51,937 bases of DNA from Terriglobales bacterium (GTDB lineage Bacteria > Acidobacteriota > Terriglobia > Terriglobales > Acidobacteriaceae): NCBI GenBank assembly GCA_035543055.1, contig DATKKJ010000098.1, positions 1 to 51,937 on the forward strand. Reading direction: 5' to 3'. Within the stretch, counting starts at the first letter, position 1, and each line of letters begins with the position of its first letter. Both the position numbers and the translations under genes were made by a program. Below, piece by piece: positions 3,562 to 50,051 of this stretch. The notes under the pieces were generated by a model. That model was not told where the DNA came from. It saw only the letters and a list, made by a program, of their open reading frames with translations, and ran no database searches.

Positions 3562-3606
3562 GGAGTCCTTCTGCCGGGTCGGTGACCCGGACGTTCAGCA
3601 ACGCGA

Positions 3607-4086: not shown

Positions 4087-4097
4087 TGCGTCCTCGC

Positions 4098-6110
4098 TCA
4101 GGAACGGGCCGCGGCGGCGTAATGCGTCGCGTGGCTGCGCTCCTCGCCGAACGGCGCCTGCTTGGAAGCGTGGCGGCCGTGGCCGTTGCTTCCGCTTGCG
4201 GAGGCTTCCAGCGCGAAGCGGTCCATCGCTTCGAGCAGGCTGCGGGCCATCTTCGACATCTGCTCCGCCGAGGCCGCCAGCTCGGTGGAGCTGGAAGTGG
4301 ATTGCTGAGTCAGTTCGCGCATCCGCTCCATGGCTTTGACCACGGCCTGGGCGCCCGAGGCCTGCTCCTCGACCGAGGAGTTGATCTCGTGCGTGATCTC
4401 GTTCAGGCGGGTAGTGGCCTTGGCGATCTGCGAGGAGCCGTGCGACTGCTCGTTGGTGGCCGCGCCGATCTCTTGGGCGAACTTGTACACCTCGGTCACC
4501 ACGTTGGAGATCTTCTTGAGCGCGGCGCTCAGGTCGCTGCCCAGGGTCAGACCGTCGTTGACGATGGCGGTGCTCTTCTCCATGTTGTCCACGGCCTTGC
4601 GCGATTCGTTCTGGATGCTGCGGATCAGGTCGCTGATCTCCTTGGTGGACTGCGCCGATTTCTCCGCCAGTTTGCGGACCTCGTCGGCGACCACGGCGAA
4701 GCCCAGCCCGTGCTCGCCCGCGCGCGCCGCCTCGTTGGCGGCGTTCAGGGCCAGCAGGTTGGTCTGCTCGGCCAGGTCGTCGATGACCTCGATGATCTTG
4801 CCAATGTCGTCGGCGCGCTGTCCCAACACCCCGATGATGCCGGACGAGGTATGGATGGAATCGTTGATCTTGTTCAGCCCCTGGGTGGCCTTGTCCATGG
4901 TGACGATTCCACTCTGCACTTCCTCGCGCGAGCGCTGGGAAATGTCGAGCAGCACCTTGGCGGTGTCGGCCACGCGCTGGATGGAGGCGACCATCTCGTC
5001 GATGGAGGCCGAGGTCTCGCTGACGCTGGAGGCCTGCACTTGGGTGTTCTTCACCATGTTCTGCACATTGATGGACATCTCGTGCATGGTGCTGGTGACC
5101 TCGTCGATCGCCTGCGAGGCCTGGATGCTGACCTTGGCGGATTCCTCGCTGGCGCCGGCCACCTGGTTGGAACCACTGGCGACCTGCGAGGCGCTGTCGC
5201 GCACGCTAGTGACCAGCTTGCGCAGGCCGCCGATCATGCTGGTGAACGCTAACGCGAGCGTGTCCTTGTCGGAACGGGGCTGCACTTCCAGCCCCAGATT
5301 GCCGCCGGCGATGGCCTCGGAAACGGCTGCCATCTCCTTCAGGTAAGTGACCATGCGCTCGAAGGTGCGTGCCAGTTCGCCGATCTCGTCGTTGCGGCTG
5401 ATGTCGACCGACTGGTTCAGGTCGCCGGATTCGCCGATCTGACGGGCTACGGCCATCAGATGCGAGAGCGGATGAGTGATGGACCGCGCCGTGAATACTG
5501 CGACCCCGGCGCCGCAGATGAGCGCCAGCAGCGTGCCCAGGATCGAGACCACCAAGGTGATGGTGGAAGCGGTCTCGTTGAACTTCTGTTGCGATTCCCG
5601 ATTGGCGGCCGTGGCTTGCTTGGCATCGTCGAGGGGCTCAGCGGATTTCCGCAGCCATTCGGTGGGATTCTGCTGCAGATAGAAGATCTGGAGTTCCGCG
5701 ACCGTGGCGTTGCCGCCATCCACGTCTTTGCGCTTGCTGATCATGGCGCCGGCGAACGAGGTCACCCAGCTCTGTTCCGCTTCCTTGACCCGGGTCAGGG
5801 CGGTGCGTTCCCGCTCCGAATCCGCCAGCCTGAGGGCGTGGTTGAGCAGTTCGTTCAGCTTGGAGACGCCTGCGTTCATCTGGTCCAGTTCGCGGGTGTC
5901 ACCGCTGAGCAGGTAATTGCCCAACAGGAGGCGGTTCTGCATCATCTGGAAGCGAACCGCCTCGGTGGCCTGTTCCATCTCCGCCGACCTGGCCGCGGCC
6001 GACCGCGCCGACCGCTCGCGCAGCATCGCCGCCATGCTGAGCAGGAACAGCACCATCACGATGGAAAGGATCGCTCCAAAGCCCACGTATAGTTTCTTGC
6101 GGATACTCAT
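4098..6110 (-). CDS. Methyl-accepting chemotaxis protein with four-helix sensor domain
   Basis: Membrane chemoreceptor of 670 residues. TM1 is at about residues 8-30. A roughly 150-residue, largely helical periplasmic region follows and looks like a four-helix-bundle sensor (CHASE3/4HB type by appearance only). TM2 (STITLVVSILGTLLALICGA) leads into a HAMP domain (ITHPLSHLMAVARQIGESGD), with a possible second HAMP after it. The cytoplasmic signalling tip reads [20 protein letters not shown], with ANEAARAGE in place of the usual AIEAARAGE. The C-terminus has no pentapeptide docking motif. It is the second gene of the sigma-54-driven cluster 1 operon, 27 bp after the TonB-like gene. The ligand cannot be read from the sequence. 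Confidence 0.93.
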   Translation of the reverse strand: MSIRKKLYVGFGAILSIVMVLFLLSMAAMLRERSARSAAARSAEMEQATEAVRFQMMQNRLLLGNYLLSGDTRELDQMNAGVSKLNELLNHALRLADSERERTALTRVKEAEQSWVTSFAGAMISKRKDVDGGNATVAELQIFYLQQNPTEWLRKSAEPLDDAKQATAANRESQQKFNETASTITLVVSILGTLLALICGAGVAVFTARSITHPLSHLMAVARQIGESGDLNQSVDISRNDEIGELARTFERMVTYLKEMAAVSEAIAGGNLGLEVQPRSDKDTLALAFTSMIGGLRKLVTSVRDSASQVASGSNQVAGASEESAKVSIQASQAIDEVTSTMHEMSINVQNMVKNTQVQASSVSETSASIDEMVASIQRVADTAKVLLDISQRSREEVQSGIVTMDKATQGLNKINDSIHTSSGIIGVLGQRADDIGKIIEVIDDLAEQTNLLALNAANEAARAGEHGLGFAVVADEVRKLAEKSAQSTKEISDLIRSIQNESRKAVDNMEKSTAIVNDGLTLGSDLSAALKKISNVVTEVYKFAQEIGAATNEQSHGSSQIAKATTRLNEITHEINSSVEEQASGAQAVVKAMERMRELTQQSTSSSTELAASAEQMSKMARSLLEAMDRFALEASASGSNGHGRHASKQAPFGEERSHATHYAAAARS

Positions 6111-6137
6111 ATCTGCCTCTTCACGTACTGCTTCGCG

Positions 6138-6482
6138 CTAGCTCGCGGGATTAAAGTTGAACTGCACGATGGTCGTGGTCTCGTCTTTCCCCGGTTCGTA
6201 CTTCCATTTCTTGACGGCGTCGACGGCGGGGTCGATCAGCAGGGGGTGTCCCCCGAGAGCCTTTGCCGACTTCACGCTGCCGTTGGGTGCGATGGTGACT
6301 TGCACCTTTACGGTGCCGCTCACGTTCATCTTGCGGGCCAGCTCGGGATACATCGGCGATACCTTTGTCTTGACCTTGCGCTCGGCCTCTTCCTGGGCCG
6401 AAGCGGTTTGCGCCGCCACCATGACAGCCAGCAGCGCGATGATTGCGATTCCCATCCAACGCATGATCTTTCGCAGCAGCAC
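6138..6482 (-). CDS. Small secreted TonB C-terminal domain protein
   Basis: A protein of about 114 residues with an N-terminal hydrophobic segment (MGIAIIALLAVMVAAQTASA) that looks like a signal peptide, then a TonB/energy-transducer C-terminal fold (SPMYPELARKMNVSGTVKVQ and AVDAVKKWKYEPG). I chose the GTG at 6482 because GGAGGA lies 4 nt upstream and the sigma-54 promoter at 6539-6524 predicts a transcript start near 6514; the longer frame from 6563 would begin upstream of that. ATG codons at 6464 and 6455 are alternatives. It is the first gene of the cluster 1 operon, an unusual partner for a chemoreceptor. It lacks the long Pro-rich spacer of a true TonB, so a periplasmic role is inferred. 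Confidence 0.8.
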   Translation of the reverse strand: MLLRKIMRWMGIAIIALLAVMVAAQTASAQEEAERKVKTKVSPMYPELARKMNVSGTVKVQVTIAPNGSVKSAKALGGHPLLIDPAVDAVKKWKYEPGKDETTTIVQFNFNPAS

Positions 6483-6523: not shown

Positions 6524-6539
6524 TGCAAGGCCGATGCCA
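6524..6539 (-). promoter_or_regulatory. Sigma-54 promoter of chemosensory cluster 1
   Basis: On the minus strand the sequence reads TGGCATCGGCCTTGCA, a strong match to the -24/-12 consensus TGGCACG-N4-TTGCA with the required GG-N10-GC spacing. The expected start is near 6514, about 30 nt before the GTG at 6482. The bases after the -12 box (CACTT) are shared with the promoters at 11616 and 14222. TCTCA/TGAGA sites lie upstream at 6558-6562, 6651-6657 and 6684-6696. Confidence 0.8.
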
Positions 6540-6683
6540 ATGTGCAGAAAGTGCCAGTCTCAACCTAATAATTTCAAATAAATAACTTATTTTCAGACAT
6601 TTACATCAATGTTTATAGGCCGAGAAAGGGGCGTGCTTGGAGGCCGGGAGCGTCTCATGAGCAGCCTTGGCAGCGCCTATCTG

Positions 6684-6696
6684 TCTCAGGCTGAGA
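6684..6696. promoter_or_regulatory. TCTCA-N3-TGAGA dyad, candidate NtrC-type activator site
   Basis: Perfect dyad TCTCAGGCTGAGA, about 150 bp upstream of the cluster 1 sigma-54 promoter and about 40 bp upstream of the weaker one facing the kinase operon. The same dyad recurs exactly at 14092-14104, with one mismatch at 6752-6764 and at 11519-11531. Single heptamers CGTCTCA occur at 6651-6657 and 6784-6790 in the same divergent region. The placement is typical of an enhancer; the bound protein is inferred. Confidence 0.6.
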
Positions 6697-6733: not shown

Positions 6734-6750
6734 GGGACTCTTATTTGCTT
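6734..6750 (+). promoter_or_regulatory. Possible sigma-54 promoter of the kinase operon
   Basis: GGGACTCTTATTTGCTT keeps GG-N10-GC spacing and a TTTGC -12 element, but the -24 element is only partly conserved. A dyad ACTCA-N3-TGAGA at 6752-6764 would overlap the start site, which could allow autorepression. A sigma-70 alternative, TTGACT-N18-TACTTT at 6749-6778, overlaps it, so the promoter type is undecided. The remainder of 6566-6680 is AT-rich and without a recognisable gene. Confidence 0.4.
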
Positions 6751-6824
6751 GACTCAATTTGAGATTAGACGGTACTTTCGCACCGTCTCAGCACCCAGTC
6801 CGGGTTCCTAAGCGCCGCCACACC

Positions 6825-9659
6825 ATGAGTATCCGCAACGAATCCGCAACCCCGGATACCTCGCCAGGTGTGGACAGTCCTTTCCAAGCTTTGTTGCTCG
6901 AGATCTCTACTGCCTGCCGTGAAGGACGCACCCTGGCGGAGCTGATCTCACTGTTCTGCAAGGCGACGCGGGGGTTCTTCGCCTTGGATGGGGTGTATTA
7001 CTGGAGACTGGCGGACGGGGAGCAGTTGGTCGGCGTGGATGCCGACGGCTTCCAGGCGGAGCGGTTCCGCGCCTCCACCTTGCGCATGAGCGAAAGCGCG
7101 GTCGCGGTGGAGGCGGTCAAGAGCCGGCACACGGTGTATGCGAACCATCTCGACCCGCTGAAATACCCGATGGCGGGGGATTTCCAGGCGAAGTCGTTGA
7201 TGGCGGCGCCACTGATCGTTGGCGGGGATGTGATCGGGGCCATCGTCTTTCTCAGCCGTGACGACGGCGAGCACTTCGATGAAGACTTGGCCGGCAAGGC
7301 CACCATCCTGGCGTCGTACCTGGGCAGCCTGATCGAAACCCTGCAGCGCTCCGAGCGGCACCGCAAGCGCGCCGAGGACCTGATGGCCCTCGCCCTGGAA
7401 TTGAGCGCGTCGTTGCGCTTGCCGGAGTTCGCCCGTAGCTTCACCGAGCGGGTCACCGGGATGTTAGGGGCGCAAGCCGGCGCCCTGGCGCTCTCGCAGG
7501 GCTCCAGCCTGGAGACTATCGTCCTCCATGAGCCGGGCGAGCCCAGCGACAAGGCACAGGTGCGGCGGCTGACTGCGGCTCTGAGCGACGTGGCCGCGGA
7601 ACGCTCCTCCGCCCTGCTGCAGGGCGATGCTGCCCAATTGCTGGGACCGGGCATCGCCGCGGCGTTGGGCTGGCGCGACCTGGTCGTGGTACGGCTGGTG
7701 GGCGCGGATCAGGAGCTGCTGGGGCTGCTCTGCCTGGCGAATCTCGATCACGAGTTGTCCCAGCCCGACCGCAACCTGCTGCAAGCGGTCTCGGCGCACG
7801 CTTCGGTGGCGCTGGAGAACTCGCGCCTGTTCTCCCGCATCGCGCAATCCAACAAGCACTGGGCGGAGATCTTCGATTCCATCACCGACTTCATCGTGGT
7901 GCACGACGACGCCCACCGCGTGTTGCGGGTGAACCTGCCCCTGGCGCAATTCATCGGGGTGCGGCCGGCGGAGCTGATCGGGGTGGGCATGCGCGCCCTG
8001 GTCTCGATCGCCGCCGACGCCGGCGACCAGCCGTGCCCCTTCTGCCGCGTGGGGATGGAGAAGAGCGACGAGTACATCCACCCGGTGCTGGACCGGACGT
8101 ACCTGGTCTCGACCTCGCGGGTGCGGGGAGCGCTGAACGAGGGGTTGCAGACCATCCACGTGCTCAGGGACATCACCGACCGGCGGGAGGCGGAACGGCG
8201 CTATCGCGAGTTGCTGGACAACATCCAGGAAGGCATCTTCTTCTCCACGCCGGAAGGGCACTTCGTCGAGGTCAATGACGCGCTGGTCCGCATGCTCGGC
8301 TATGACAGCCGCGAGCAACTCCTGCAGATCGACATCCGCACCGAGCTCTATCCCGAGCCGGAGCAACGGCGGCGGTTCATCGAGGCCATCGAGAAGCAAG
8401 GCATGGTGCGGAACTTCGAAGAAGCGCTGCGGCGGCGTGACGGCACCCTCGTGCATACCCTGGAGAATGCGTTCGCAGTGCGCGACGCGAAGGGCGTGGT
8501 CATCCAGTATCGCGGGGTGATGCTCGACATCAGTGAAGTCAAGGCCTTCCAGGCGCAGCTGCAGCGGGAGCGCGACTTCAACACCAAGATCCTGAACAAC
8601 ACCCAGAGCATGATCCTGGTAGCGGACACCGCCGGGTTGGTGAGCTACGCCAACCGCCGCTGCTTCGAGCACGGCAATTTTCGCGAAAGCGAGCTGCTCG
8701 GCCATCAACTGCTGGAATTCGTCGCCCCCCAGCGGCGGGAAGCGATGGCCGCGGCTTTCGAAGCCGTCCTGGCCGGCCAGCAAGTGAACAATCTCGAGCT
8801 TCCCATGATGCGGCCGGACGGCAAGCTGTCGCAGTTCTCCATCAATCTCAGCCCCATGCGGGACGAGCGTGGGGAGGTGAACAGCATGGTGGCGGTCATG
8901 ACCGACGTCACCGACGCCGCCATGCTGCAAGGCAAGCTGATGCACGCCGAGAAGATGGCGGCGGTCGGCCAGCTGGTCTCCGGCGTCGCCCACGAGGTCA
9001 ACAACCCGCTGACCGCGATCCTGGGATTCGCCGACCTGCTGCTGGAGCAGGAGGACGTCCCGGAATCGGCGCACAAGAACCTGAAGGTGATCGTGCAGGA
9101 GGCGCAGCGAACCAAGACCATCGTGCAGAACCTGCTCAGCTTCGCGCGGCAGATGCCGGCGGAGCACCGCGCCGTCCAGGTGAACCCGATCCTGCGGCGC
9201 ACCCTGCAACTGCGCGCCTACGACTTCGCCAGCCACGGGGTGGACATCGTGGAGCGGCTACGCGACGGGATGCCGGATATCGTGGGCGACGCCCAGCAAC
9301 TGCAGCAGGTCTTCCTGAACATCATCAACAACGCCTACGACGCGGTGCGGGAGACGGAGCGCCGCGGCACCATCGAGGTGGAGACTTCTTACGTCAACGG
9401 CGGCATCGAGGTCGCGTTCCGCGATAACGGCCGCGGCATCCAGTTCCCGGAGCGCATCTTCGATCCGTTCTTCACCACCAAAGAGGTTGGCAAGGGCACC
9501 GGACTGGGGCTGAGCATCTGTTACGGCATCGTGCGCGAGCACGGAGGCGACATCATCTGCCATAACAATGAGGGCAGGCCGGGGGCCACATTCATCGTAC
9601 GCTTGCCGGCGGCTGCGGGGCCGGCGGCAGTGGCGGCCGCGGCGGGAGCGCAGGCATGA
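6825..9659 (+). CDS. Soluble multi-sensor histidine kinase (GAF-GAF-PAS-PAS-PAS)
   Basis: A 944-residue kinase without any membrane segment, so it senses a cytoplasmic signal. Two GAF-like domains (about 20-350) are followed by three PAS modules (about 350-720). The first PAS carries a Cys pair (DQPCPFCRVGMEK) that could be redox- or metal-sensitive. The H-box is GVAHEVNNPLTAILGFADLL near residue 722, and the ATPase boxes are INNAYDAV, DNGRGI and GTGLGLSI. The start is the ATG at 6825; upstream in-frame codons would lie in the promoter region. Its stop overlaps the next gene as ATGA. It most likely phosphorylates the receiver protein and the NtrC-type activator immediately downstream. Confidence 0.9.
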   Translation: MSIRNESATPDTSPGVDSPFQALLLEISTACREGRTLAELISLFCKATRGFFALDGVYYWRLADGEQLVGVDADGFQAERFRASTLRMSESAVAVEAVKSRHTVYANHLDPLKYPMAGDFQAKSLMAAPLIVGGDVIGAIVFLSRDDGEHFDEDLAGKATILASYLGSLIETLQRSERHRKRAEDLMALALELSASLRLPEFARSFTERVTGMLGAQAGALALSQGSSLETIVLHEPGEPSDKAQVRRLTAALSDVAAERSSALLQGDAAQLLGPGIAAALGWRDLVVVRLVGADQELLGLLCLANLDHELSQPDRNLLQAVSAHASVALENSRLFSRIAQSNKHWAEIFDSITDFIVVHDDAHRVLRVNLPLAQFIGVRPAELIGVGMRALVSIAADAGDQPCPFCRVGMEKSDEYIHPVLDRTYLVSTSRVRGALNEGLQTIHVLRDITDRREAERRYRELLDNIQEGIFFSTPEGHFVEVNDALVRMLGYDSREQLLQIDIRTELYPEPEQRRRFIEAIEKQGMVRNFEEALRRRDGTLVHTLENAFAVRDAKGVVIQYRGVMLDISEVKAFQAQLQRERDFNTKILNNTQSMILVADTAGLVSYANRRCFEHGNFRESELLGHQLLEFVAPQRREAMAAAFEAVLAGQQVNNLELPMMRPDGKLSQFSINLSPMRDERGEVNSMVAVMTDVTDAAMLQGKLMHAEKMAAVGQLVSGVAHEVNNPLTAILGFADLLLEQEDVPESAHKNLKVIVQEAQRTKTIVQNLLSFARQMPAEHRAVQVNPILRRTLQLRAYDFASHGVDIVERLRDGMPDIVGDAQQLQQVFLNIINNAYDAVRETERRGTIEVETSYVNGGIEVAFRDNGRGIQFPERIFDPFFTTKEVGKGTGLGLSICYGIVREHGGDIICHNNEGRPGATFIVRLPAAAGPAAVAAAAGAQA

Positions 9660-10051
9660 GCACCGCGAGTCAGCAGGTCTTGCCCATCCTGGTGATCGAG
9701 GATGAAGCGTCGGTGATGGGCTTCCTGGTGGCCGCGCTGGAGCGCGCCGGCTACCGCACCGCCCAGGCCGCGAGCGGGGCGGATGCCCTGCGCATGCTGG
9801 CGGTCGCCAGTTATCTGGGAGTGGTCTCCGACATGCGCACCCCGGGCGGGGTGAACGGCGCCGATGTCCACGCCTGGCTGGCCGCCAATCGGCCGGAACT
9901 GGTCTCCCGCGTCGTCTTTATCACCGGCGACACGGTCAACGAGGAGACGCAGCAGATTCTCCGCCACACCGGGGCGCCCTGTATCGAGAAGCCGTTCCGG
10001 GTGCAGCAGCTGATCCAGTGCGTGGAAAAGACCATTGGGAAGGCCCGATGA
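9656..10051 (+). CDS. Single-domain response regulator
   Basis: A 131-residue receiver with no output domain. The acidic pair is IEDE near the N-terminus, the phosphoacceptor is in GVVSDMRTPGG, Thr in FITGD and Lys in IEKPF. It sits between the kinase and the sigma-54 activator, with 4-bp ATGA overlaps on both sides, which points to fixed stoichiometry in one operon. It may act as a phosphate sink or as an intermediate that tunes phosphotransfer to the activator. Receiver identity is clear; that role is inference. Confidence 0.9.
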   Translation: MSTASQQVLPILVIEDEASVMGFLVAALERAGYRTAQAASGADALRMLAVASYLGVVSDMRTPGGVNGADVHAWLAANRPELVSRVVFITGDTVNEETQQILRHTGAPCIEKPFRVQQLIQCVEKTIGKAR

Positions 10052-11478
10052 CCGACGACTACCGCATCAAGTTCCTGATCGTGGACGACGAGCAGAGCAT
10101 CCGCAAGCTGTGCATGACCATCGGCGCTTCGCTGGGCTTCGACTGCACCGAGGCGGAGAGCGGTGAGGCCGCCCTGGTACAGCTGGAAGCCGAGTGCCCC
10201 GACATCCTGATCGCCGACCTGATGCTGCCCAAGATGAGCGGCGTGGAGCTGTTGCAGCAGGTCAAGAACCTGCAGCCCGGTTGCGAGGTGGCCATCATGA
10301 CCGGCCACGGCTCCATCGAGAGCGCGGTGCAGGCTATGAAACTGGGCGCGTACCACTACATCCAGAAGCCGTTCCGGGTGGAAGAGGTCAAACTCATCCT
10401 GCAGCGCATGGCGGAGAAGGTACGCCTGGTAGCCGAACGCGATTTTCTGCGCGACCGGCTGAGCACGGAGAGCCAGCTCAATGACATCACCGGCTCGTCG
10501 GCCAAGATCCAGGATGTGCTGCGCATGATCGCCCGCCTGAAGGACACCCGCACCCCGGTGCTCATCACCGGGGAGAGCGGAACGGGCAAGGAGTTGGTGG
10601 CGCGCGCCATTCACTTCCGCGGGTCCTTCGCCAAGCGTCCCTTCGTCGCGGTGGATTGCGGCGCCCTGGTGCCCACGCTGATCGAGAGCGAGCTGTTCGG
10701 CTATGAGAAGGGCGCCTTCACCGGGGCGCTCAAGTCGAAGCACGGGCTCTTCCAGGCGGCCAACGGCGGCACCATCTTCCTGGACGAGATCGGCGAGCTG
10801 CCGCAGGAGATGCAGGCCAAACTTCTGCGCGTGCTGCAAGAGAAAGAGGTCCGACCGGTGGGCAGCAACGATCGGCAGAAGGTGGACGTGCGGGTGATCG
10901 CAGCCACCAACCGCGACCTGGAGGCAGCCTACAAGGCCGGCACCTTCCGCAAGGACCTTTTCTTCCGCCTCAATGTGGTGACCATCCACCTGCCGCCGCT
11001 AAGGGAGCGGAAGTCGGACATCCCCAGCCTAGTGCGGTGCTTCCTGCTGGACCATTCACCCGACACCCCCATCCAGGTGATGCCCGAAGTGCTGCGCTGC
11101 CTGCTGCGGTATGACTGGCCGGGGAACGTGCGCGAGTTGCAGAACTGCATCGAGCGGGCGATCGCCTTGGGGAACAAGCAGACCATCGACATCGCCGACC
11201 TGCCGCCGGCCATACGGGAAGCTCGCGCCGGGGCGCCTGCGGTCTTCGAAACCGAGGCCATCCCTGAGCACGATGGGGAAGCGGCCTCGGGATCGGCAAC
11301 CGACCTGGAAGATATCGAACGCATGACCATCCAGCGCGTCTTCGAACAGGTGGGCGGCGACAAGGCGCTGGCTGGCAAGATGTTGGGCATCAGCCGGGCA
11401 ACGCTCTACCGAAAGCTCAAGCGCTACAACATCAGCCTGGAGCGCGCCAAGGGCGTTGGCGCTACCTCTGAAGGGTAG
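10048..11478 (+). CDS. NtrC-family sigma-54-dependent transcriptional activator
   Basis: A 476-residue enhancer-binding protein. The receiver (1-120) has LIVDDEQSIRK and the phosphoacceptor in ILIADLMLPKMSG. The AAA+ domain has Walker A GESGTGKE (near residue 174), the sigma-54 contact loop GAFTGA (near 221) and Walker B GGTIFLDEIGEL. The C-terminal Fis-type helix-turn-helix reads GKMLGISRATLYRKLKRYNI. The GAFTGA loop is intact, so it should drive sigma-54 RNA polymerase. Sigma-54 promoters precede cluster 1, the next operon and cluster 2, all within a few kb, making these its most likely targets. The ATG at 10048 overlaps the receiver stop. Confidence 0.95.
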   Translation: MTDDYRIKFLIVDDEQSIRKLCMTIGASLGFDCTEAESGEAALVQLEAECPDILIADLMLPKMSGVELLQQVKNLQPGCEVAIMTGHGSIESAVQAMKLGAYHYIQKPFRVEEVKLILQRMAEKVRLVAERDFLRDRLSTESQLNDITGSSAKIQDVLRMIARLKDTRTPVLITGESGTGKELVARAIHFRGSFAKRPFVAVDCGALVPTLIESELFGYEKGAFTGALKSKHGLFQAANGGTIFLDEIGELPQEMQAKLLRVLQEKEVRPVGSNDRQKVDVRVIAATNRDLEAAYKAGTFRKDLFFRLNVVTIHLPPLRERKSDIPSLVRCFLLDHSPDTPIQVMPEVLRCLLRYDWPGNVRELQNCIERAIALGNKQTIDIADLPPAIREARAGAPAVFETEAIPEHDGEAASGSATDLEDIERMTIQRVFEQVGGDKALAGKMLGISRATLYRKLKRYNISLERAKGVGATSEG

Positions 11479-11507: not shown

Positions 11508-11545
11508 CTGAGAAACTGTTTCAACCTGAGACGCCGACCCCGGCT
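11508..11545 (+). promoter_or_regulatory. Upstream activator block, architecture TGAGA-N5-TTTCA-N3-TGAGACG
   Basis: Half-sites lie at 11509-11513, 11519-11523 and 11527-11533. Position by position, 29 of 38 bases match the block at 14081-14118, including half-site order and spacing. The block is 108 bp from the -24 promoter start at 11616; the second block is 141 bp from its promoter, a difference of 33 bp or about three helical turns. This is what an enhancer for the activator encoded just upstream would look like. Confidence 0.6.
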
Positions 11546-11615
11546 TTCCGCTAAGCACCGAGCGAAGCCTTCTGATTTTTCAAGAACTTACGACTTCTGG
11601 TGTGGCCTGAATCTT

Positions 11616-11631
11616 TGGCCGTCGTCGTGCA
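11616..11631 (+). promoter_or_regulatory. Sigma-54 promoter of the three-gene operon
   Basis: TGGCCGTCGTCGTGCA has GG-N10-GC spacing; the -12 box is GTGCA rather than TTGCA. The flanking sequence strongly resembles the cluster 2 promoter: both have TGGCCG, then TGCACTTC and TCTGCG at matching positions. The expected transcript start is near 11643, which rules out the GTG at 11600 as the start of the following gene. Confidence 0.7.
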
Positions 11632-11677
11632 CTTCCACTCTGCGAATCGAAGTGGCTTTCCGCCCGAAGGCTGGGCG

Positions 11678-12031
11678 GTGCGAGGTCATGTGGCGCAAAA
11701 GGCCGTCATTTCTCCGTGGGCAGAGGAACAGTCGGACGTGGCCAGGCTGGCGGGGTTCTTTCCCGCGGCTACCGCCATCCGGGTGCCGGTGCGGGTGGGT
11801 CGCATCGAGGGTGACGAAGAAGAAGAGACGGTCATTGAGTTCGGCACTCCGCGAGAGGTCTTGTTCGCCGCCAGGCTGCCGCTGGAGTTCGGCGATCGCA
11901 TCCGGCTGGTGAATGCGGAGGGGCTGCTGGAGGCGGAAGCCGAAGTTGTCGCTGTGCAATACCACGAGGGCAAGACCGCAGTCGCTGCCCGCTTTATCGG
12001 GCCGGTTGCGAATTGGGTCATTCGAAAATGA
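11678..12031 (+). CDS. Small PilZ-like domain protein (degenerate)
   Basis: About 117 residues. The core (FPAATAIRVPVRVGRI, PREVLFAARLPLEFGDRIRL, EAEAEVVAVQYHEGKTAVAA) resembles the beta-barrel of PilZ proteins, in which a strand is followed by a distance-controlled second motif. However, the c-di-GMP-binding RxxxR and D/NxSxxG motifs are not evident, so binding is doubtful. The start is uncertain: GTG at 11678 has AAGG 7 nt upstream; GTG at 11690 is an alternative; the frame extends up to 11600 but that lies before the predicted transcript start. It overlaps the next gene as ATGA and is first in a sigma-54-driven operon. PilZ assignment is tentative. Confidence 0.6.
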   Translation: MRGHVAQKAVISPWAEEQSDVARLAGFFPAATAIRVPVRVGRIEGDEEEETVIEFGTPREVLFAARLPLEFGDRIRLVNAEGLLEAEAEVVAVQYHEGKTAVAARFIGPVANWVIRK

Positions 12032-13452
12032 GCACCGCCACCATGTCATTGCGCGAGATCGCCGCCCAATGGCGAGCGGACCGCCGCATTTATCCCATCT
12101 ACGCCAGCATCGTGCGCCAGTTCGAACTCGGGATCGAGCCCTGCCGCGACCTGGAATCTCCGATCGACCGCAACGACCCCGAGGTCCTGGAGAAGATCGC
12201 TGCCTGGTTCGACGCCGTGGACGCGCGCAGCCATGCAGGACACCTGCGCCAGGCGCTGCAGACCGCCAAGGTCGCCAAGGAAGACAACTTGAGGGCGCTG
12301 CTGGGACGCTTTCTCGGCAAGGAAAAGAAAAGCCCCGCCGACCGTGACAAGGTGGATTTCCTGCTGGTCCAGTACTTCTCCCAGTGTGCTCCCCACTCCA
12401 TGCACGATCGCGAACTGGAGCTCGACGACATCGCCCAGGTGCTGGAGCCGGTGCTGGGCGAGACGGTCCCCCATCAGCCGCGCTGGCTCGAAGTGCTCGA
12501 TGGCGAACTGGCGAGACTGAAGGAATGCAAGACGTTCCACGAGCTGTTGGAGAAGGGAATCCTGGCGCACGTCCGCCAGCTCAAGGAAGAGGCCGGGGAG
12601 ATGTATTTCGGCTCGGGGGCTATGCTGGCCTTTACCCGATTCAATTTTGTCGCCCGGCATGCCTTCTTCCGGCTCCTGCATGCGGACCTGGGAACCATGC
12701 GTCACGCGCTGCACGAACTCGAGAAGCGGGGTATCAAGCACTTGGATTGCCGGGCCGCGGGACTCTCGGACAAGGAGCCGCTGAACAACGTGGCGGCGAT
12801 CTGGCACGACTGGAAGACCCCGTTCCGGGCGCCCTACGCGGCAGGTCAGCCGTTCGAGCGCATGATGAAGGTTGCGCGCATCGTGGAGCAGGAGGCCACA
12901 AAGCCTGTGCCCGCACCACAGCCGGCGCCCGAGCCGCCAAAAGCAACCGCAGCGCCGAAGCCGGCCGCTGAGAAAGCGAAGCCCGCGCCGCTACCCGCAG
13001 TGGCGAAACCATCCCCCGCTCCGACCAAGGCGGAAACTCAGCCAGTGATGGATGTGCAGTCCTGCCTGGAGCACATCGCCGAACAACTCATCGGCGAGGT
13101 GCAGGCGACGCCCACCTCGGTGGCCACCATCCACTACCACGATTCGAAGGTCCTGCTTTCCTCGTGGGAAGTGGCGGCATTCACCAAGGGTGGCAATGAC
13201 GCCGCCGACGCGCTGCAACGCGCGGTGGCCGGCCGGACCATCCTGCTGGAAGCGGTCGAACGGAAGAAGAAGGGTGTTCCGGCGGCCGATCTGCCGGAGG
13301 CGACCAAGCTGGCCCACGCCGAGGTCGCACTCCTGCAGGAGAGCATCGCGAAGGCCAAGGAGCGCAAAGACATCGACGCGGCGGTGAACCTGGCCGCGAC
13401 TTGCAAGCGGATGCTGGGGCTGATCGAGGAAGCGGAGAAGCTGAGCCGTTAG
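12028..13452 (+). CDS. Conserved-looking hypothetical protein, 474 aa
   Basis: I do not recognise a family. The N-terminal part (about 1-300) is a mostly helical globular domain (LREIAAQWRADRRIYPIYAS, ARHAFFRLLHADLGTMRHAL) with scattered Cys residues. A Pro/Ala/Lys-rich linker spans roughly 300-345. The C-terminal part is again helical, with a strand-like segment (SVATIHYHDSKVLLSSWEVA) and a charged amphipathic tail. No signal peptide or membrane segment is seen, so it is probably cytoplasmic. It is coupled by ATGA to the PilZ-like gene and followed 12 bp later by the phosphotransferase-like gene. Its place between two chemosensory clusters under a sigma-54 promoter suggests a signalling adaptor or scaffold, but this is inference from context only. 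Confidence 0.75.
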   Translation: MSTATMSLREIAAQWRADRRIYPIYASIVRQFELGIEPCRDLESPIDRNDPEVLEKIAAWFDAVDARSHAGHLRQALQTAKVAKEDNLRALLGRFLGKEKKSPADRDKVDFLLVQYFSQCAPHSMHDRELELDDIAQVLEPVLGETVPHQPRWLEVLDGELARLKECKTFHELLEKGILAHVRQLKEEAGEMYFGSGAMLAFTRFNFVARHAFFRLLHADLGTMRHALHELEKRGIKHLDCRAAGLSDKEPLNNVAAIWHDWKTPFRAPYAAGQPFERMMKVARIVEQEATKPVPAPQPAPEPPKATAAPKPAAEKAKPAPLPAVAKPSPAPTKAETQPVMDVQSCLEHIAEQLIGEVQATPTSVATIHYHDSKVLLSSWEVAAFTKGGNDAADALQRAVAGRTILLEAVERKKKGVPAADLPEATKLAHAEVALLQESIAKAKERKDIDAAVNLAATCKRMLGLIEEAEKLSR

Positions 13453-13464
13453 GGAGAGATTGAC

Positions 13465-14142
13465 GTGGACAATGTTCTGATCATCGCGGACGACGCCGAT
13501 TTCACCCGCAGTCTGGTCGGTCGCTGGCAGATGGAGCGCGCCGTGCCGACCTTCACCCAGGTGACCAGCGAACTGTGGACGCCGTCTGTGCAGGCGGGCT
13601 ATCCGCTCACCGTGATCGGCCCGATTGCGCCGGCGCGCCTGGATAGCATCCTCAGCAGCCTGGAGGCGTATCACGCGCTGGGGATCTGCGTCACCGATGA
13701 CGGCAGCCGGGTGCAGGGGATCCGCACCGCCCATCCCCGTATCCTGGTGTTCCGCCAGTACGACGGTTGGGTGGATACGCTGGTGCTCCTGGCCGCCGAG
13801 ATGCTCAAGCGCGTCGATGTCCTCTCGCAGTTGCGGCGTGCCGAACAGGCCGCGGCCAGCGACCATCGCCATGCCACCCTCGGCCGCTACATCCTGGAGA
13901 TGCGGCACAGTTTCAACAACGCCCTCACCTCCGTGCTGGGCAATGCCGAATTGCTGCTGCTGGAACCGGGAGCGGTGTCGGCGCAGGTGCGCGAGCAGAT
14001 CGACACCATCCACAGCATGGCGCTACGCATGCACGAAATCATGCAGCGGCTGTCCTCGCTGGAAGCGGAGATGAACTGCACTGAGAAATTCTCTCAAAAT
14101 GAGACGTCGCCCTCGTCTCAGGCCTATGCCATCCGTTTCTAG
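13465..14142 (+). CDS. Pseudo-receiver fused to a His phosphotransfer (DHp) helix pair, no ATPase
   Basis: A 225-residue protein. The first 120 residues look like a receiver fold (VLIIADDADFTRS, ILVFRQYDG) but lack the central phosphoacceptor Asp: the equivalent strand reads YPLTVIGPIAP. Residues 130-205 form a histidine kinase dimerisation helix pair with H-box EMRHSFNNALTSVLGNAELL (His near residue 148). No ATP-binding domain follows; the frame stops after a short Ser/Thr/Asn-rich tail. This matches the layout of phosphotransferases such as Spo0B and ChpT, which lack kinase activity. GTG start at 13465 with GGGAGA upstream. The last 20 codons contain the activator block for the next promoter, so coding and control overlap. 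It could relay phosphate between the island's kinases and receivers. Confidence 0.75.
   Translation: MDNVLIIADDADFTRSLVGRWQMERAVPTFTQVTSELWTPSVQAGYPLTVIGPIAPARLDSILSSLEAYHALGICVTDDGSRVQGIRTAHPRILVFRQYDGWVDTLVLLAAEMLKRVDVLSQLRRAEQAAASDHRHATLGRYILEMRHSFNNALTSVLGNAELLLLEPGAVSAQVREQIDTIHSMALRMHEIMQRLSSLEAEMNCTEKFSQNETSPSSQAYAIRF
14081..14118 (+). promoter_or_regulatory. Upstream activator block within the end of the preceding gene
   Basis: Alternating half-sites TGAGA (14082), TCTCA (14092), TGAGACG (14100) and CGTCTCA (14114-14120). TCTCA-N3-TGAGA at 14092-14104 is a perfect dyad. The block has the same architecture as 11508-11545 and lies 141 bp from the -24 promoter start at 14222. It sits inside the coding end of the phosphotransferase-like gene. 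A similar GAGACG palindrome occurs in dispersed repeats of this genome, which is the main alternative explanation. Confidence 0.6.
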
Positions 14143-14221
14143 TGCACCGCAGAGCTTAGCTAAGTAACTGATTCCCTTATAGTTAAAAAAAGTGATACAA
14201 AGGGTCCAGGCTGCGGTAACG

Positions 14222-14237
14222 TGGCCGCGCAATTGCA
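14222..14237 (+). promoter_or_regulatory. Sigma-54 promoter of chemosensory cluster 2
   Basis: TGGCCGCGCAATTGCA fits the -24/-12 consensus with GG-N10-GC spacing and an intact TTGCA. The predicted start is near 14249, 27 nt before the GTG of the first gene. It shares TGGCCG and TGCACTTC with the promoter at 11616. It lies in a 133-bp gap after the stop of the preceding gene and would drive the whole cluster 2 operon to 24322. Confidence 0.8.
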
Positions 14238-14275: not shown

Positions 14276-14638
14276 GTGAAGAAGATCCTGATCGTGGACG
14301 ATTCGCAGTCGGAGGCCAAGGTGATGCAGTCGGTGCTCCAGCAGGCAGGCTACTGGCCGGTGGCCATCCACGATTCCACCAAGATCGAGCAGACCATCGA
14401 CGTGGAGCGTCCGGCGCTGATCCTGCTGGATGTGGTGATGCCGCAGCGCAATGGCTTTCAGGCGTGCCGCGAGTTGAAGGGAAGCGCCGAGTACGGCCGC
14501 ATCCCCATCGTCCTGGTGACGTCGAAGAGCAGCGACAGCGACAAGTTCTGGGGCCAGCAGCAAGGGGCCGATGGGTACGTGGTCAAGCCCTTCACCCCGG
14601 CGCAGCTCCTGGTGGCGGTCCAGAAGTTCGTAGGCTGA
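14276..14638 (+). CDS. CheY-like response regulator (PilG/PilH position)
   Basis: A 120-residue receiver: LIVDDSQSEAK, phosphoacceptor in LILLDVVMPQRNG, Thr in VLVTSK and Lys in VVKPFTP. GTG at 14276 is chosen because TGAGG lies 8 nt upstream and the predicted transcript starts near 14249; the frame extends to 14192 but that is upstream of the promoter. It heads a cluster whose order matches the Pseudomonas pil-chp genes, where PilG/PilH are the output regulators for type IV pili. No pilus genes are in the window, so the output is not shown. Confidence 0.92.
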   Translation: MKKILIVDDSQSEAKVMQSVLQQAGYWPVAIHDSTKIEQTIDVERPALILLDVVMPQRNGFQACRELKGSAEYGRIPIVLVTSKSSDSDKFWGQQQGADGYVVKPFTPAQLLVAVQKFVG

Positions 14639-15163
14639 GTGAAGATGGCGGAGAACCCACAACTCGAACCGCAAGCGCAGCCGGCGGAAACCGCTGAACC
14701 ACAGGTTGCGCCAGAGGAGCAACTGCCCGAGTCGCAGTACTGCATCTTTCGGGCAGGGCGGGAGCGCTTCTCTCTGTCCGTGCTGGACGTCGAGGAAGTG
14801 GTGGAATGGCCGGCGGTGACGCGCATGCCGCTGTCGCCGGCGTTCCTGATGGGAATCTTCAACCTGCGCGGTTCCATCGTGCCGGTGATCGACATCGCCT
14901 TCACCGAAGGCCGGCGTCCGGACCTGCCCCCCAAGCACGTCGTGGTCGGCGTGCTGAAGGGAGATGGCGAGCGCGACGACCTGCGTTTGGGCATCGCCGC
15001 CGACGAAGTCATCGGGACTTACAGCACCAGCGAATCGCTCCTGGTGGACGAGGCCCCGAAGGATGTGCCGCACTGCTGCGGCATGCTGCGCCACGACGAT
15101 CGTCTGGCGCTGCACCTGGATTTGAAGAAAGTCACCGAGACGTTCCCCGTCCCGGTGATCTAG
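14639..15163 (+). CDS. cheW: CheW-like adaptor (PilI position)
   Basis: A 174-residue CheW with a 30-residue N-terminal tail rich in Glu, Gln and Pro, followed by the conserved fold: YCIFRAGRERFSLSVLDVEE, LSPAFLMGIFNLRGSIVPVI and GIAADEVIGTYS. Start at GTG 14639, directly after the TGA of the receiver gene, or ATG 14645. It should link the receptor at 15206 to the CheA at 17545. The stop codon at 15161-15163 lies at the beginning of a 7-bp-period repeat tract. Confidence 0.92.
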   Translation: MKMAENPQLEPQAQPAETAEPQVAPEEQLPESQYCIFRAGRERFSLSVLDVEEVVEWPAVTRMPLSPAFLMGIFNLRGSIVPVIDIAFTEGRRPDLPPKHVVVGVLKGDGERDDLRLGIAADEVIGTYSTSESLLVDEAPKDVPHCCGMLRHDDRLALHLDLKKVTETFPVPVI

Positions 15164-15190
15164 CCGGCAGCTAGGAGCTAGCCGCCGGTT
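15161..15190. repeat. 7-bp-period repeat tract overlapping a stop codon
   Basis: Degenerate heptamers TAGCCGG, CAGCTAG, GAGCTAG, CCGCCGG begin at the cheW stop codon. The same period occurs at six other loci in the window (24409, 26476, 35033, 36709, 45531, 47085). It lies in the 42-bp gap before the receptor gene. Confidence 0.6.
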
Positions 15191-15205
15191 GTACTTGGAG
15201 GCCGT

Positions 15206-16642
15206 ATGAAAGGTCGAGTGAATTCGACGATCTGGATGCTGGTCCTGGTGAACGTGGTCGCCATGGCCGCGATGCTGGGGCTGGGCTACGGAGCCGGAGC
15301 CTGGGCCAAGGGCCTGCCCATCCTGGACGCGGTGAGCGCGTCCAGCCAGGCGGGCATGCGCCTGCTGGGCGGGCTGCTGGTGCTCTTCATCGCCGCGGGC
15401 ATCACGTTCATCGTGCTGGGCAGCAAGGTGTCCAAGCCGGTGAAGGAGCTGACGGAGTTCTCCGAGCGTCTGGCGGCGGGCGATTACCGCGCCTCGGCCG
15501 ACATCGACTCGCAGGACGACTTCGGCTTCATCGCCCAGAACATGAACCGCACCGCGGAGAAGATCTCCAAAACGGTCTTCCACCAGGAGGCGCAGGAGAA
15601 CCTGCAGCGCTCGGTGACCGACTTCCTGACCATCGTCAGCCAGATCGCGCGCGGCGACCTGACCCTGCGCGGCAAGGTCACCAACGATGCGCTGGGCAAC
15701 GTGGTGGACTCGGTCAACTACATGCTCGACAACTTCACCAAGGTGCTGGAGCGCGTGCGCAAGGGCGCCCTCGACGTCTCCAGCAGCTCCAACCAGATCC
15801 TGGTGGCCTCCGAGCAGATGCTCAATGGCGCGGTGCAGCAGGACCAGGAGATCACCAACACCTCGTCGGCGGTGGAAGAGCTGACGGTGTCGATGAAGCA
15901 GGTGTCGAACAACGCCGAGGCGAGCGCCGAAGCCGCCCGCCGCGCGCTGGACGCCGCCGAGCAGGGCAACCGCGCGGTGCGCGACACGCTGGACGGCATG
16001 CAGCGCATCCGGGCGTCGGTGCAGGCCACGGCCAAGAAGATCAAGTCGCTGGGCGACCGCTCGCTGGAGATCAGCGAGATCATCAGCGTCATCAACGACA
16101 TCACCGAGCAGACCAACCTGCTGGCGCTCAACGCCGCCATCGAAGCGGCGCGCGCCGGCGAGGCCGGTCGCGGGTTCGCGGTGGTTGCCGACGAAGTCCG
16201 CAAGCTGGCCGAGCACTCGCGCAACGCCACCAAGGACATCGCCGCCCTGATCAAGGCCATCCAGGCGGAAACCAACGAGGCCGTGGTGGTCATGGAGGAG
16301 GGCACCAAGGAAGTGGAAGTCGGCGCCCGCCTGGCCGACCAGGCCGGCAAGGCGCTGGAAGCCATTTCGTCCGTCGTCCGCCAGTCGGCCGAGCTGGTGC
16401 AGGAGATCTCACTGGCTTCGAAGCAGCAGGTGCGCGGCACCGAAGGCGTGGCCAACGCCATGCAGATCATCTCCAACATCACGCGCCAGACCTCGCAGGG
16501 CGCCCGCCAGACGGCGCGCACCGTCGAAGAGCTGGTGAAGCTCTCCGAGCAATTGAACGAGGCCCTGTCGCAGTTCCGCGTCAGCACGGCCGCGGGTCCG
16601 GTCGAAGTGAAAGAACTCTCGGCCGCCATCAGCCGCCGGTAA
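15206..16642 (+). CDS. Methyl-accepting chemotaxis protein with minimal periplasmic loop
   Basis: A 478-residue receptor. TM1 covers about 8-30 and TM2 about 50-72, leaving only some 20 residues between them, so there is no room for a periplasmic ligand domain. A HAMP-like segment ([20 protein letters not shown]) and a second HAMP-like region ([20 protein letters not shown]) precede the signalling hairpin, whose tip is [20 protein letters not shown]. No C-terminal pentapeptide is seen. PilJ of Pseudomonas, which holds this position, has a larger periplasmic part. This receptor may sense membrane state, the cytoplasm or a partner protein. Start ATG 15206 with TTGGAGG upstream. Confidence 0.93.
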
Positions 16643-16666
16643 ACCGAGGACAGGCGGGAAGGTCCC

Positions 16667-17548
16667 ATGGTGGAGAGGAACCAGGGCACGGTCAGCAGCC
16701 ACGAGTTGTCGGAGATCCGCGCGCTCATCGAGCAGCGCTCGGGCATCCACTTCGACGACTCGCGCGAGCGCTTTCTCATCGCCCGCGTGCGCGAGCACAT
16801 GAGCGACAAGCGCATGCTGCACGGGACCGACCTGATGCGCCTCATCCGCGGCTCCAACGTGGAATACGACGCCCTGGTGGAGCGGCTGCTCACCCAGGAA
16901 ACCTCCTTCTTCCGCTATCCCGCCGTGTTCGCCGCGCTAGAGCGCAAGGTACTGCCCGAACTGCACATGAAGAAGTTCTGGGAGAACCCGCGCAGCCTGC
17001 GCATCTGGTCGGCGGGTTGCGCTTCCGGCGAAGAGCCCTATTCCGTCGCTATCACCCTGGCGGAGTCGCTGGAATTCGCCGACGCCTGGAACATCCACAT
17101 CCTGGCCACCGATATCAGCAAGCAGGCGCTGCAGCATGCCGAGCGCGGTGTCTACCCCCGGCGCGAGCTGGCCAGCCTCGACCTGCGGCAGCTGGAGAAC
17201 TATTTCGTGCGGGTGGGCGACCAGTTCATGGTCAAGCCCCGCATCCGCAACATGGTCAGCTTCGCCCCGGTGAACCTGGCCAACGGCGTGTACATGGGAC
17301 GGTTCGACTGCATCTTCTGCATGAACGTCCTGATCTACTTCACCGAGGAGCGGCGCTCACAGGTCATCCAGCGCTTCTACGATTACCTCGAGCCCGGCGG
17401 TTATCTGTTCCTCGGCCACTCCGAGTCGGTGGCGCGGCTGCCGGTGAACTTCGAGACCACCGTGGCCGGCGACTGCCTCCTCTACCAGAGGCCCAACAGC
17501 AGCGTTGCGCGGCGCTCCAACGCAGCCGCTGCCCGGGAGAGCCTATGA
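16667..17548 (+). CDS. cheR: CheR-type methyltransferase (PilK position)
   Basis: A 293-residue chemoreceptor methyltransferase. N-terminal helical domain (ALIEQRSGIHFDDSRERFLI), then the SAM-binding motif IWSAGCASGEEPYSVAI, ILATDISKQAL and CIFCMNVLIYFTEERRSQVI. The C-terminal GYLFLGHSESVARLP is conserved in the family. It lies 24 bp after the receptor gene and overlaps the CheA start by 4 bp (ATGA). It is distinct in sequence from the CheR of cluster 1, so each array has its own adaptation enzyme pair. Confidence 0.94.
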   Translation: MVERNQGTVSSHELSEIRALIEQRSGIHFDDSRERFLIARVREHMSDKRMLHGTDLMRLIRGSNVEYDALVERLLTQETSFFRYPAVFAALERKVLPELHMKKFWENPRSLRIWSAGCASGEEPYSVAITLAESLEFADAWNIHILATDISKQALQHAERGVYPRRELASLDLRQLENYFVRVGDQFMVKPRIRNMVSFAPVNLANGVYMGRFDCIFCMNVLIYFTEERRSQVIQRFYDYLEPGGYLFLGHSESVARLPVNFETTVAGDCLLYQRPNSSVARRSNAAAARESL

Positions 17549-20500
17549 GCGCCCCGGGCCAGGATTTCGTCGAAGTCTTCCTCCAGGAAGCGTCCGAGCA
17601 CCTGCAGTTCCTGCGGGAGTACTCGGGGCTGCTGTTGGACCCTTATCCGGCGGCCGACGACTTGGACCGCCTGTACGTTTCCGCCCACACCCTGGGCGGC
17701 GCCTCGGCGATGTACGGCTTCCCGCTGTTCTCGGAGATCGCGGGCAAGCTGGCGCACATCTTCCAGTACGCGATGAATGCGACCATCGGAGCGGAAGCGG
17801 CCCCTCCGCTGGTCGAATTCATCTCGGAAGCGGTGGCGGTACTGGAGTCGGACCTGCTGATGATCAGCGCCACCGGAGGCGAAGCCGCCGAAGACATCAC
17901 CGCCTTCAAGCAGAAGTATCCCTTCGCCTTCACCGGGCCCACGCCGGAGGAGCGAGAGAAGGAAGCGGCGCTGGAAGCGGCGGCGTCGGTCGAGCATCCG
18001 GCAGCGGCTCCGGAACCGCCGCCGCAGTTCGCCGAGCTGCCCCAGGACGGCGATGTGCCGCCCGAGATCCTCGAGTTCTTCGTGCCCGAGGCGGAAGAGC
18101 ACCTGCAAGTCGTCACCGATTGCCTGCTCTCCCTCGAAACCAATCCGAATCCCGAAGAGATCCACCGCCTGTTCCGGGCCATGCACACCATCAAGGGGTC
18201 GGCGGCACAGGTGGGGCTGCACCGCATCGCGCATGTCGCCCACCGGGCCGAGGACCTGGTGGGACGCCTGCGCGACGGTGAGCTGATGCCTTCCGCCCAG
18301 ATCGTGGACATCTGCCTGGAAGCGGTGGACACGCTCAAGAAGTTCCTCTACCGCCAGTGGCCTGACGACCAGGCGATGCAGTCGGCGGTGACGTCGCTGC
18401 TGACCCGCATCGCGCACCTGGCGCCGGAAGAGAGGGAACCTGCTGTCGCGGCAGCCGTGCCCACGCAGGTAGCCGAGACCTTGGTAGAGACGCCACTTGG
18501 GACGTCTTCTGAGACGCAGCAAGCTGCGTCTCTACCAGAACTTGCCGCCGAAGCCCAGACCCTTGCCGCTCAGGCCGCCGAACTCTCGCAAGAGCTGGAA
18601 GCCGCGCGCGCCCAGACCCAGGCCCTCCGTGCCGAGCTTGTGGAAGCCGCCAGGCCGGAGCCGGCAGTCGAATCCAAGGAAGCGGAGGCCGAGGCGGCCA
18701 AGAAAGAGCCCGCGGGCGTGCCGCAGTCCAAGTCCGTCCGCATCGCTCTGGAGCGCCTGGACCGCATGATGAATGCGGTCGGCGAACTGGTCATCAACCG
18801 TACCCGCATGGTGGGACGTCTCAACGAACTGGAGAAGCTGGCCGACGTGCTGAACTTCTCCAAGGCCCGCATGTCCGACAAGGTCGCCGAATTCCAGGAG
18901 AAGTACGAGTTCGGCCGCCTGGCGAGCGGCAACTTCGCTCCCACCCCGAAGCACGTCGATCCGTACCCGTTCTCCGGGGGCTACTCCAGCTATTCTCATT
19001 CCTTCGATCCCGCGCTGGCCGAGTTCAGCGAGCTGGAGATGGACCGCTACGACGACTTCAACATCCTCTCGCGCTCGCTGACCGAGATCTCCGCCGACAT
19101 CACCGAGGTGCTGACCCAGCTCGACGGCTTCGTGCGCCGCGTGGATTCCGACATCGACGAGTTCACCAAGCTGGCCCACCGCCTGCAGGATGAGATCACC
19201 CAGGCCCGCATGGTACCCATTGGCAACCTCTACACCCGCCTGACCCGCACCGTGCGCGACGCCGCCAAGGCCGCGGGCAAGCATGTGGAGCTCACCCTGG
19301 CCGGGGCCGAGACTGAGCTCGACAACAACATCATCCAGCAGATCTCCGACCCGCTCATCCACCTGGTGCGCAACGCGGTGGCCCACGGCATCGAGCGTCA
19401 CGACGACCGCTACGCCGCCGGCAAGCCTGACCAGGGCAACGTCGCGGTTCGCGCCTACCACCGCGGCAATCACATCTACATCGAGGTCGAGGACGACGGG
19501 CGGGGCATCGACTACGAGAAGGTCCGCAGCACCGCGGTCGAGAATAGCCTGGTCAGCGCGGAAGACGCTGCCAAGCTGGGCGAGCGCGACCTGCTCGAAC
19601 TCCTCTTCCACCCCGGCTTCTCAACCGCGCCGCGCAAGACGGAACTCGCCGGCCGCGGCGTCGGCCTGGACGTGGTGCGGGCCAACCTTTCGCAGCTGAA
19701 TGGCGAGATCGAGATCGAGACCCAGAAGGGAGTGGGCTCGCGCTTCACCCTCAAGGTCCCGCTCACCCTCATCATTTCCCAGGCGCTGTTCGTGCGCTGC
19801 GGCGAGAGCGTGTTCGCCCTGCCTTTGGCCTTCGTCGAAGAGATCCGCCGCCTGAAGGAGTCGGACATCGAGGAAGTCGGTGGCAAGCTGCTGACCAAGG
19901 TGCGCGACGTGGTCACCGAGGTGGTCCGGCTCGACCAGTCGCTCGGCCTGGAACGCGTCGAGCCGGTCAACGGCTACTACCGGCTGGTGATCGTCAATGT
20001 CGCAGGGCGGCAGGTTGGCGTGGTGGTCGAAGAGGTCATCCGCAAGGACGAGATCGTCATCAAGAGCCTGGGCGAGTACATGCGCAATGTGAAGCTGTTC
20101 CCCGGGGCCACCATCGCGCCCGACGGCAGCCTCATCCTGCTGATCGACGTCAACCGCCTGGTCGCCGGCGAATCCATCGAGCGGCGGCCGCTGATGACCA
20201 GCGCCACCGCGGCCCGCATCTTCGCTCCCGGCGCCGCCGCCGTGGCCCGCGGCGAGATCCCGGCGGAAGCCATCGACCAAGTGGCGCCCGAGAAAGTCGT
20301 CGTGCTGGCGGACGATTCCATCAGCGTCCGCAAGTTCGTGGGCCGCATGCTGGAGAAGGCCGGCTACCGCGTGCGCCTGGCGGCCGACGGTCTCGAGGCG
20401 TTAGAGATCGCAACCCAGAATCGCTGCGACCTGGTGATCACCGACCTGGAGATGCCGCGCACCAACGGCTACGAGCTGATGACCCACCTGCGGCAGCAAC

Positions 20501-20697: not shown

Positions 20698-20699
20698 TC

Positions 20700-28106: not shown

Positions 28107-28137
28107 GGTAGAGACGCCCGTCAGGGCGTCTCTAACC
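28107..28137. repeat. REP-like palindrome (GTAGAGACGCCC type)
   Basis: GGTAGAGACGCCC at 28107-28119 faces GGGCGTCTCTAACC at 28124-28137. The same family occurs at 50025 and, in altered form, at 18483. Sits between the divergent gph and E1 genes. Confidence 0.75.
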
Positions 28138-50024: not shown

Positions 50025-50051
50025 GTAGAGACGCCCGTCAGGGCGTCTCAC
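50025..50051. repeat. REP-like palindrome between DUF1800 and DUF1501
   Basis: GTAGAGACGCCC at 50025-50036 faces GGGCGTCTC at 50041-50049. Same family as 28107. It fills the gap between the two genes and may replace normal leader sequence. Confidence 0.75.

Follow-up and report, generated by a model that had tools for sequence, protein, structure and literature searches.

A conserved TCTCA-N3-TGAGA dyad is the predicted operator of an NtrC-type activator located between two chemosensory operons

Introduction

The window analysed here, one entire 51.9-kb contig of a draft genome (3.32 Mb, 255 contigs), carries the gene of a sigma54-type activator that sits between two complete chemosensory operons. 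Which DNA sites might this activator recognise, and which promoters would it serve? A sequence-only reading had singled out two similar blocks, at 11508-11545 and 14081-14118, together with two dyads in the divergent region, and had predicted that they form the operator of the activator encoded from 10048. We examined this prediction through pattern searches of the whole host genome and through comparison with related genomes.

Results

The activator and its locus

The genes of the locus are arranged as follows.

572..6473, minus strand: predicted target operon TonB-like - MCP (CHASE3/HAMP/MCPsignal) - CheW - CheR - CheA (profile matches)
6826..10051, plus strand: sensor kinase (GAF-PAS-HisKA-HATPase) and single-domain REC, 5' of the activator (Pfam; syntenic)
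10048..11478, plus strand: activator, response regulator - Sigma54_activat AAA+ - Fis-type HTH_8, an NtrC-type enhancer-binding protein (Pfam)
11600..12031, plus strand: small protein without Pfam family (ORF list; syntenic)
12028..13452, plus strand: conserved protein without Pfam family, in the same operon as the small protein (Pfam search; syntenic)
13465..14142, plus strand: protein with HisKA-like domain, with the 14092 operator inside its 3' end (Pfam; syntenic)
14276..23546, plus strand: predicted target operon REC - CheW - MCP - CheR - CheA(REC) - CheB - CheW - CheW - REC/DUF4388 (Pfam/NCBIfam)

The small protein resembles PilZ by eye only; its listed ORF start overlaps a promoter, and the true start is probably the GTG near 11690. 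The activator is the sole DNA-binding protein that Pfam recognises in the conserved block. PilT genes are present in the host genome, in which flagellin gave no match.

Matches to PF00072, PF00158 (235.7 bits) and PF02954 identify the activator as a sigma54-dependent response regulator of the NtrC family (REC, Sigma54_activat AAA+ and Fis-type HTH), and both the one rpoN gene of the genome (PF04552, 203 bits, on contig C20) and the location of the dyad sites upstream of -24/-12 promoters agree with this assignment. Its scores remain below the equivalog cut-offs for NtrC (TIGR01818, 421.9 versus 558.6 bits), LuxO (NF041946, 350.9 versus 800), AtoC (NF008469, the best NCBIfam match, 438.3 versus 714) and PrsR, the PEP-CTERM regulator (TIGR02915, 354.1 versus 502.6). 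Judged by the activator, the closest named relatives are Acidobacteria MAGs, Candidatus Sulfotelmatobacter among them. Orthologs, with 66-76% identity (far above that of paralogs) and synteny kept, were found in approximately 35 of 60 genera in the family, and no genome had more than one clear ortholog. The host genome encodes approximately 15 other full-length sigma54 activators. The recognition helix, GISRATLYRKLKR, is 98% conserved in 32 orthologs, versus 43% in 11 paralogs from the same genome.

The twin blocks share a core dyad

The two blocks are indeed identical at 29 of 38 positions, and no rival register was found. Taken alone, this match is not significant: composition predicts approximately 0.6 such pairs on the same strand, and 8 clusters of them occur in the window, some of which are paralogous genes or low-complexity sequence. 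A GGTCGTCGGTC-rich low-complexity repeat, present at two distant places (26475 and 47111), is identical at 32/38 positions. Since chance can account for 29/38 identity in a window of this length, the question was decided by cross-genome comparison, and any significance of the twin blocks rests on their conservation across genomes.

We performed an unbiased search for any 5-bp dyad with a gap of 0-12 bp in the intergenic regions of 33 orthologous loci from approximately 30 genera. TCTCA-N3-TGAGA ranked first, with 24/33 loci and 0 in the coding control; the dyad in second place, CTCAA-N1-TTGAG, corresponds to the central portion of site B (6752). Each twin block contains the 13-bp dyad, as TTTCAaccTGAGA at 11519 and TCTCAaaaTGAGA at 14092, and the dyads reported for the divergent region were confirmed (TCTCAggcTGAGA at 6684, here site A, and ACTCAattTGAGA at 6752). 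The half-site order proposed earlier stood in part: the TGAGA repeats are present (at 11509 and 11527, and at 14082 and 14100), but both the unbiased search and the relatives place the core in the right-hand pair, TCTCA-N3-TGAGA, and make the left TGAGA auxiliary. As a core, TGAGA-N5-TCTCA was found in 6 loci versus 24 in the same search, and its near matches genome-wide number 20 versus 22 for the reversed control.

6684..6696, minus strand: site A operator TCTCA-GGC-TGAGA, for the leftward operon (exact copy)
6653..6657, minus strand: auxiliary half-site, promoter-proximal to site A (aligned relatives)
11509..11513, plus strand: auxiliary TGAGA, 5 bp upstream of the post-activator dyad (aligned relatives)
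11519..11531, plus strand: post-activator operator dyad TTTCA-ACC-TGAGA (equivalent with at most one mismatch after the activator in approximately 20 orthologous loci)
14082..14086, plus strand: auxiliary TGAGA, 5 bp upstream of the pre-REC2 dyad, partly within coding sequence (5/10 aligned pre-REC2 sites)
14092..14104, plus strand: pre-REC2 operator dyad TCTCA-AAA-TGAGA (exact copy; kept in other genomes)
14116..14120, plus strand: auxiliary TCTCA, 11 bp downstream of the pre-REC2 dyad (5/10 aligned pre-REC2 sites have it at this exact distance)

The auxiliary half-sites differ in spacing and orientation from one site to another. In the majority of aligned post-activator sites a TGAGA precedes the core by 3-8 bp, with a mode of 5, and most loci carry TCTCA approximately 26 (or 14) bp to the left of site A, on the promoter side.

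Sigma54 promoters adjoin three of the sites

We scored -24/-12 boxes against shuffled sequence, and the following are conserved in relatives.

6524..6540, minus strand: sigma54-type -24/-12 box TTGGCATCGGCCTTGCA, leftward operon
11615..11631, plus strand: sigma54-type -24/-12 box TTGGCCGTCGTCGTGCA, post-activator
14221..14237, plus strand: sigma54-type -24/-12 box GTGGCCGCGCAATTGCA, pre-REC2

A minus-strand box with a score of at least 13 was found 117-166 bp away from site A candidates in 26/29 cases, versus a background of 2%. Nearly all of the post-activator sites in the approximately 20 orthologous loci are followed by a sigma54 box; at a score of at least 12.5 and within 260 bp, 22/23 have one (shuffled background 4.6%). 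For pre-REC2 sites, 4 of the 5 scored have a box of at least 13 (background 2%).

The distances read earlier, from the block starts to the TGG of TTGGccgtcgtcgtGCa (from 11615) and of gTGGccgcgcaatTGCA (from 14221), are correct at 108 and 141 bp. The 33-bp difference does amount to approximately three helical turns, but it does not reflect a constraint conserved across relatives, where operator-to--24 distances are 73-110, 117-166 and 129-135 bp. Phasing at 10.5 bp over all distances was not significant (Rayleigh p ~0.10), and the best period was found elsewhere. Because the distances range over 73-166 bp without significant 10.5-bp phasing, the helical-turn argument was not used as evidence.

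The dyad is specific to the locus and accompanies the activator

Conservation, geometry and co-occurrence of the sites can be read directly from the genomes. The 3.32 Mb of the host genome contain 3 exact copies of the dyad, 2 of them at the locus, and 14 copies with at most one mismatch, of which 4 are at the locus. A genome of the same genus, G198, has 2 exact copies, both at the locus, and conserves all four sites. Throughout 30 genomes with an ortholog, 79 exact copies were counted versus 36 for a reversed-pattern control, and at least 33 of the 79 are no more than 13 kb away from the activator (manual count). The site-B pattern, TTGACTCA-N3-TGAGA, is present in 24/24 ortholog-bearing genomes among 151 of the class, linked in 23, and in 6/127 genomes of the class that have no ortholog; in these six it is never close to homologs of the locus. 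Fisher's test for the linked pattern versus the ortholog gives 2.8e-26, a value that overstates the evidence because related genomes are non-independent samples. Two same-genus genomes without the ortholog carry TTGACTCATTTTGAGA with identical flanks (L289:6452 and L290:6293), with no locus homolog nearby.

Co-occurrence cannot tell the activator apart from the other proteins conserved at the locus; no domain is recognised in two of these. Where the locus is divided, the operator stays with the operon: in G015 the REC-CheW-MCP operon and the activator are on different contigs, and so they are in G030, whose activator gene lies where a contig ends; in both, the operon still carries the operator.

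Approximately 40 exact copies outside the locus were examined in relatives, and only four lie close to a strong box. In two cases (L242, L247) the operon concerned is again REC-CheW-MCP, located on another contig. The other two, at L241:2037 and L257:2004, have strong sigma54 boxes at distances of 86 and 120 bp. The host genome itself has an exact copy at C65:25537 (L113:10677-10689) and a one-mismatch copy at C65:21946 (L113:7086-7098), in a cluster of genes for TPR, NusG-like, Wzz, sugar transferase, PEP-CTERM and a REC-less enhancer-binding protein. They precede, respectively, the enhancer-binding protein gene of this exopolysaccharide cluster and a PEP-CTERM gene; the latter has a good -24/-12 box, TGGCATTCCACTTGCC, approximately 143 bp after the second copy. 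These copies are possible additional targets; G198 has no exact copy of the C65 type.

Alternative explanations

It is highly improbable that the blocks reflect chance or the dispersed GAGACGCC palindrome family, either of which the earlier reading had named as grounds for abandoning its prediction. The 29/38 identity is by itself at chance level, GAGACGCC hairpins do occur at 28109-28134 and 50028-50049, and TGAGACGCC is found at 11527; these hairpins, however, are built of GAGACGCCC/GGGCGTCTC arms without the TCTCA-N3-TGAGA arrangement, the operator sites have no opposite arm, and orthologous loci keep the dyad constant while differing in the bases that follow TGAGAC. Neither random placement nor family membership was found, the dyad being locus-specific and conserved. 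The two hairpins are near-identical and perfect (TAGAGACGCCC-GTCA-GGGCGTCTCTA type), apparently a dispersed repeat that shares GAGACG and is unrelated to the operator. Nor do we expect the sites to bind a different regulator, be it one of the other enhancer-binding proteins or a DNA-binding protein of the locus that escaped recognition. The genome offers approximately 15 candidates of the first kind, one of the other activator genes, on C65, is preceded by an exact dyad, and two conserved locus proteins lack a Pfam family; but site presence tracks the 10048 ortholog, the recognition helices of the paralogs differ, and exact copies in G198 are confined to the locus. Phylogenetic footprinting, locus specificity, ortholog co-occurrence and adjoining sigma54 boxes strongly favour the prediction that the dyad is the operator of the activator at 10048.

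The role of the fourth site is a separate matter, and it concerns the following features.

6749..6778, plus strand: sigma70-type promoter TTGACT-N18-TACTTT with site B embedded (relatives)
6752..6764, plus strand: site B operator ACTCA-ATT-TGAGA, inside the kinase-activator promoter, flanked by its -35 and -10 (relatives)

All four sites could be activating, with 6752 stimulating its own operon from a sigma54 promoter of the kinase gene. Positive autoregulation is frequent in two-component systems, which counts for this arrangement, and a GG-N10-GC string (GG-ACTCTTATTT-GC, approximately 6734-6748) lies just 5' of 6752 in the window. Against it, the kinase gene shows no sigma54 box above background in relatives, with 0/31 at a score of at least 12, a level reached by 12% of shuffles, whereas TTGACT-N18-TAnnnT is fixed around site B, with an unchanged distance to the TA in 35/37 loci, which is the geometry of a repressor operator. 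Site 6752 lies inside a sigma70-type promoter, not beside a conserved -24/-12 element, and we regard the all-activating arrangement as unlikely. Being between -35 and -10, site B is most simply a repressor site, and its geometry quite likely signifies repression of the kinase-REC-activator operon; NtrC (PMC10746234) and LuxO (PMC3482212) offer precedents for enhancer-binding proteins that regulate themselves negatively.

Discussion

Taken as a whole, the data are best explained if the twin blocks serve as upstream activating sequences for the activator encoded at 10048-11478, a prediction that we make with high confidence. Binding, phosphorylation, activation and autorepression are predicted steps of the model that we propose. 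A dimer of the activator would read the 13-bp dyad TCTCA-N3-TGAGA through its Fis-type HTH, and the nearby auxiliary TGAGA/TCTCA half-sites would probably take up one more protomer or dimer, helping the oligomer to assemble. Once phosphorylated by the upstream GAF-PAS kinase, the activator would loop to the sigma54 polymerase at three promoters, activating the leftward TonB-MCP-CheW-CheR-CheA operon from site 6684, its own downstream operon from 11519, and the REC-CheW-MCP-CheR-CheA-CheB operon from 14092. Binding at 6752 would block polymerase at the sigma70-type promoter and keep the activator level steady. On balance, we consider it probable that a locus-private enhancer-binding protein co-ordinates two complete chemosensory systems via sigma54 while holding its own level constant through a site between -35 and -10, in an arrangement conserved in at least two families of one class.

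The sigma54 networks of Acidobacteriota have been little studied, and this analysis assigns to a conserved, uncharacterised activator of the phylum a small closed regulon and an operator that can be tested. It suggests that soil bacteria with PilT and without flagella produce their two chemosensory arrays jointly and on demand, and that one dyad may serve in two roles, as an enhancer and as a promoter-embedded operator.

An NtrC-type activator with a private operator set is of a kind already known; its operator, TCTCA-N3-TGAGA, had no match in our literature searches, which covered open-licence papers. The system is similar to that of LuxO, in which operators of the form TTGCA-W3-TGCAA precede the Vibrio qrr genes, each sigma54 promoter having one or two of them approximately 90-120 bp upstream (PMC11443567; motifs from ChIP-seq in PMC10328515), and luxO is autorepressed (PMC3482212). 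Both have an NtrC-family response regulator, a 5-3-5 bp dyad and sigma54 promoters, but the half-site is TTGCA in one and TCTCA in the other, and LuxO targets sRNAs whereas the candidate targets here are chemosensory operons. NtrC, with which the activator shares the REC-AAA+-HTH_8 architecture, represses its own ntrBC operon and activates sigma54 promoters from upstream sites in rhizobia (PMC10746234); its operator differs, and the locus described here has no nitrogen genes. In the CrdS-CrdA system of Myxococcus xanthus, for which an operator sequence of CrdA was not found in the literature searched, an NtrC-type activator and a kinase are coupled to the Che3 chemosensory system (PMC3510030). 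This tie between an NtrC-type activator and a chemosensory system is a functional parallel, with the difference that the activator studied here is located between two complete chemosensory operons, whose transcription it appears to control.
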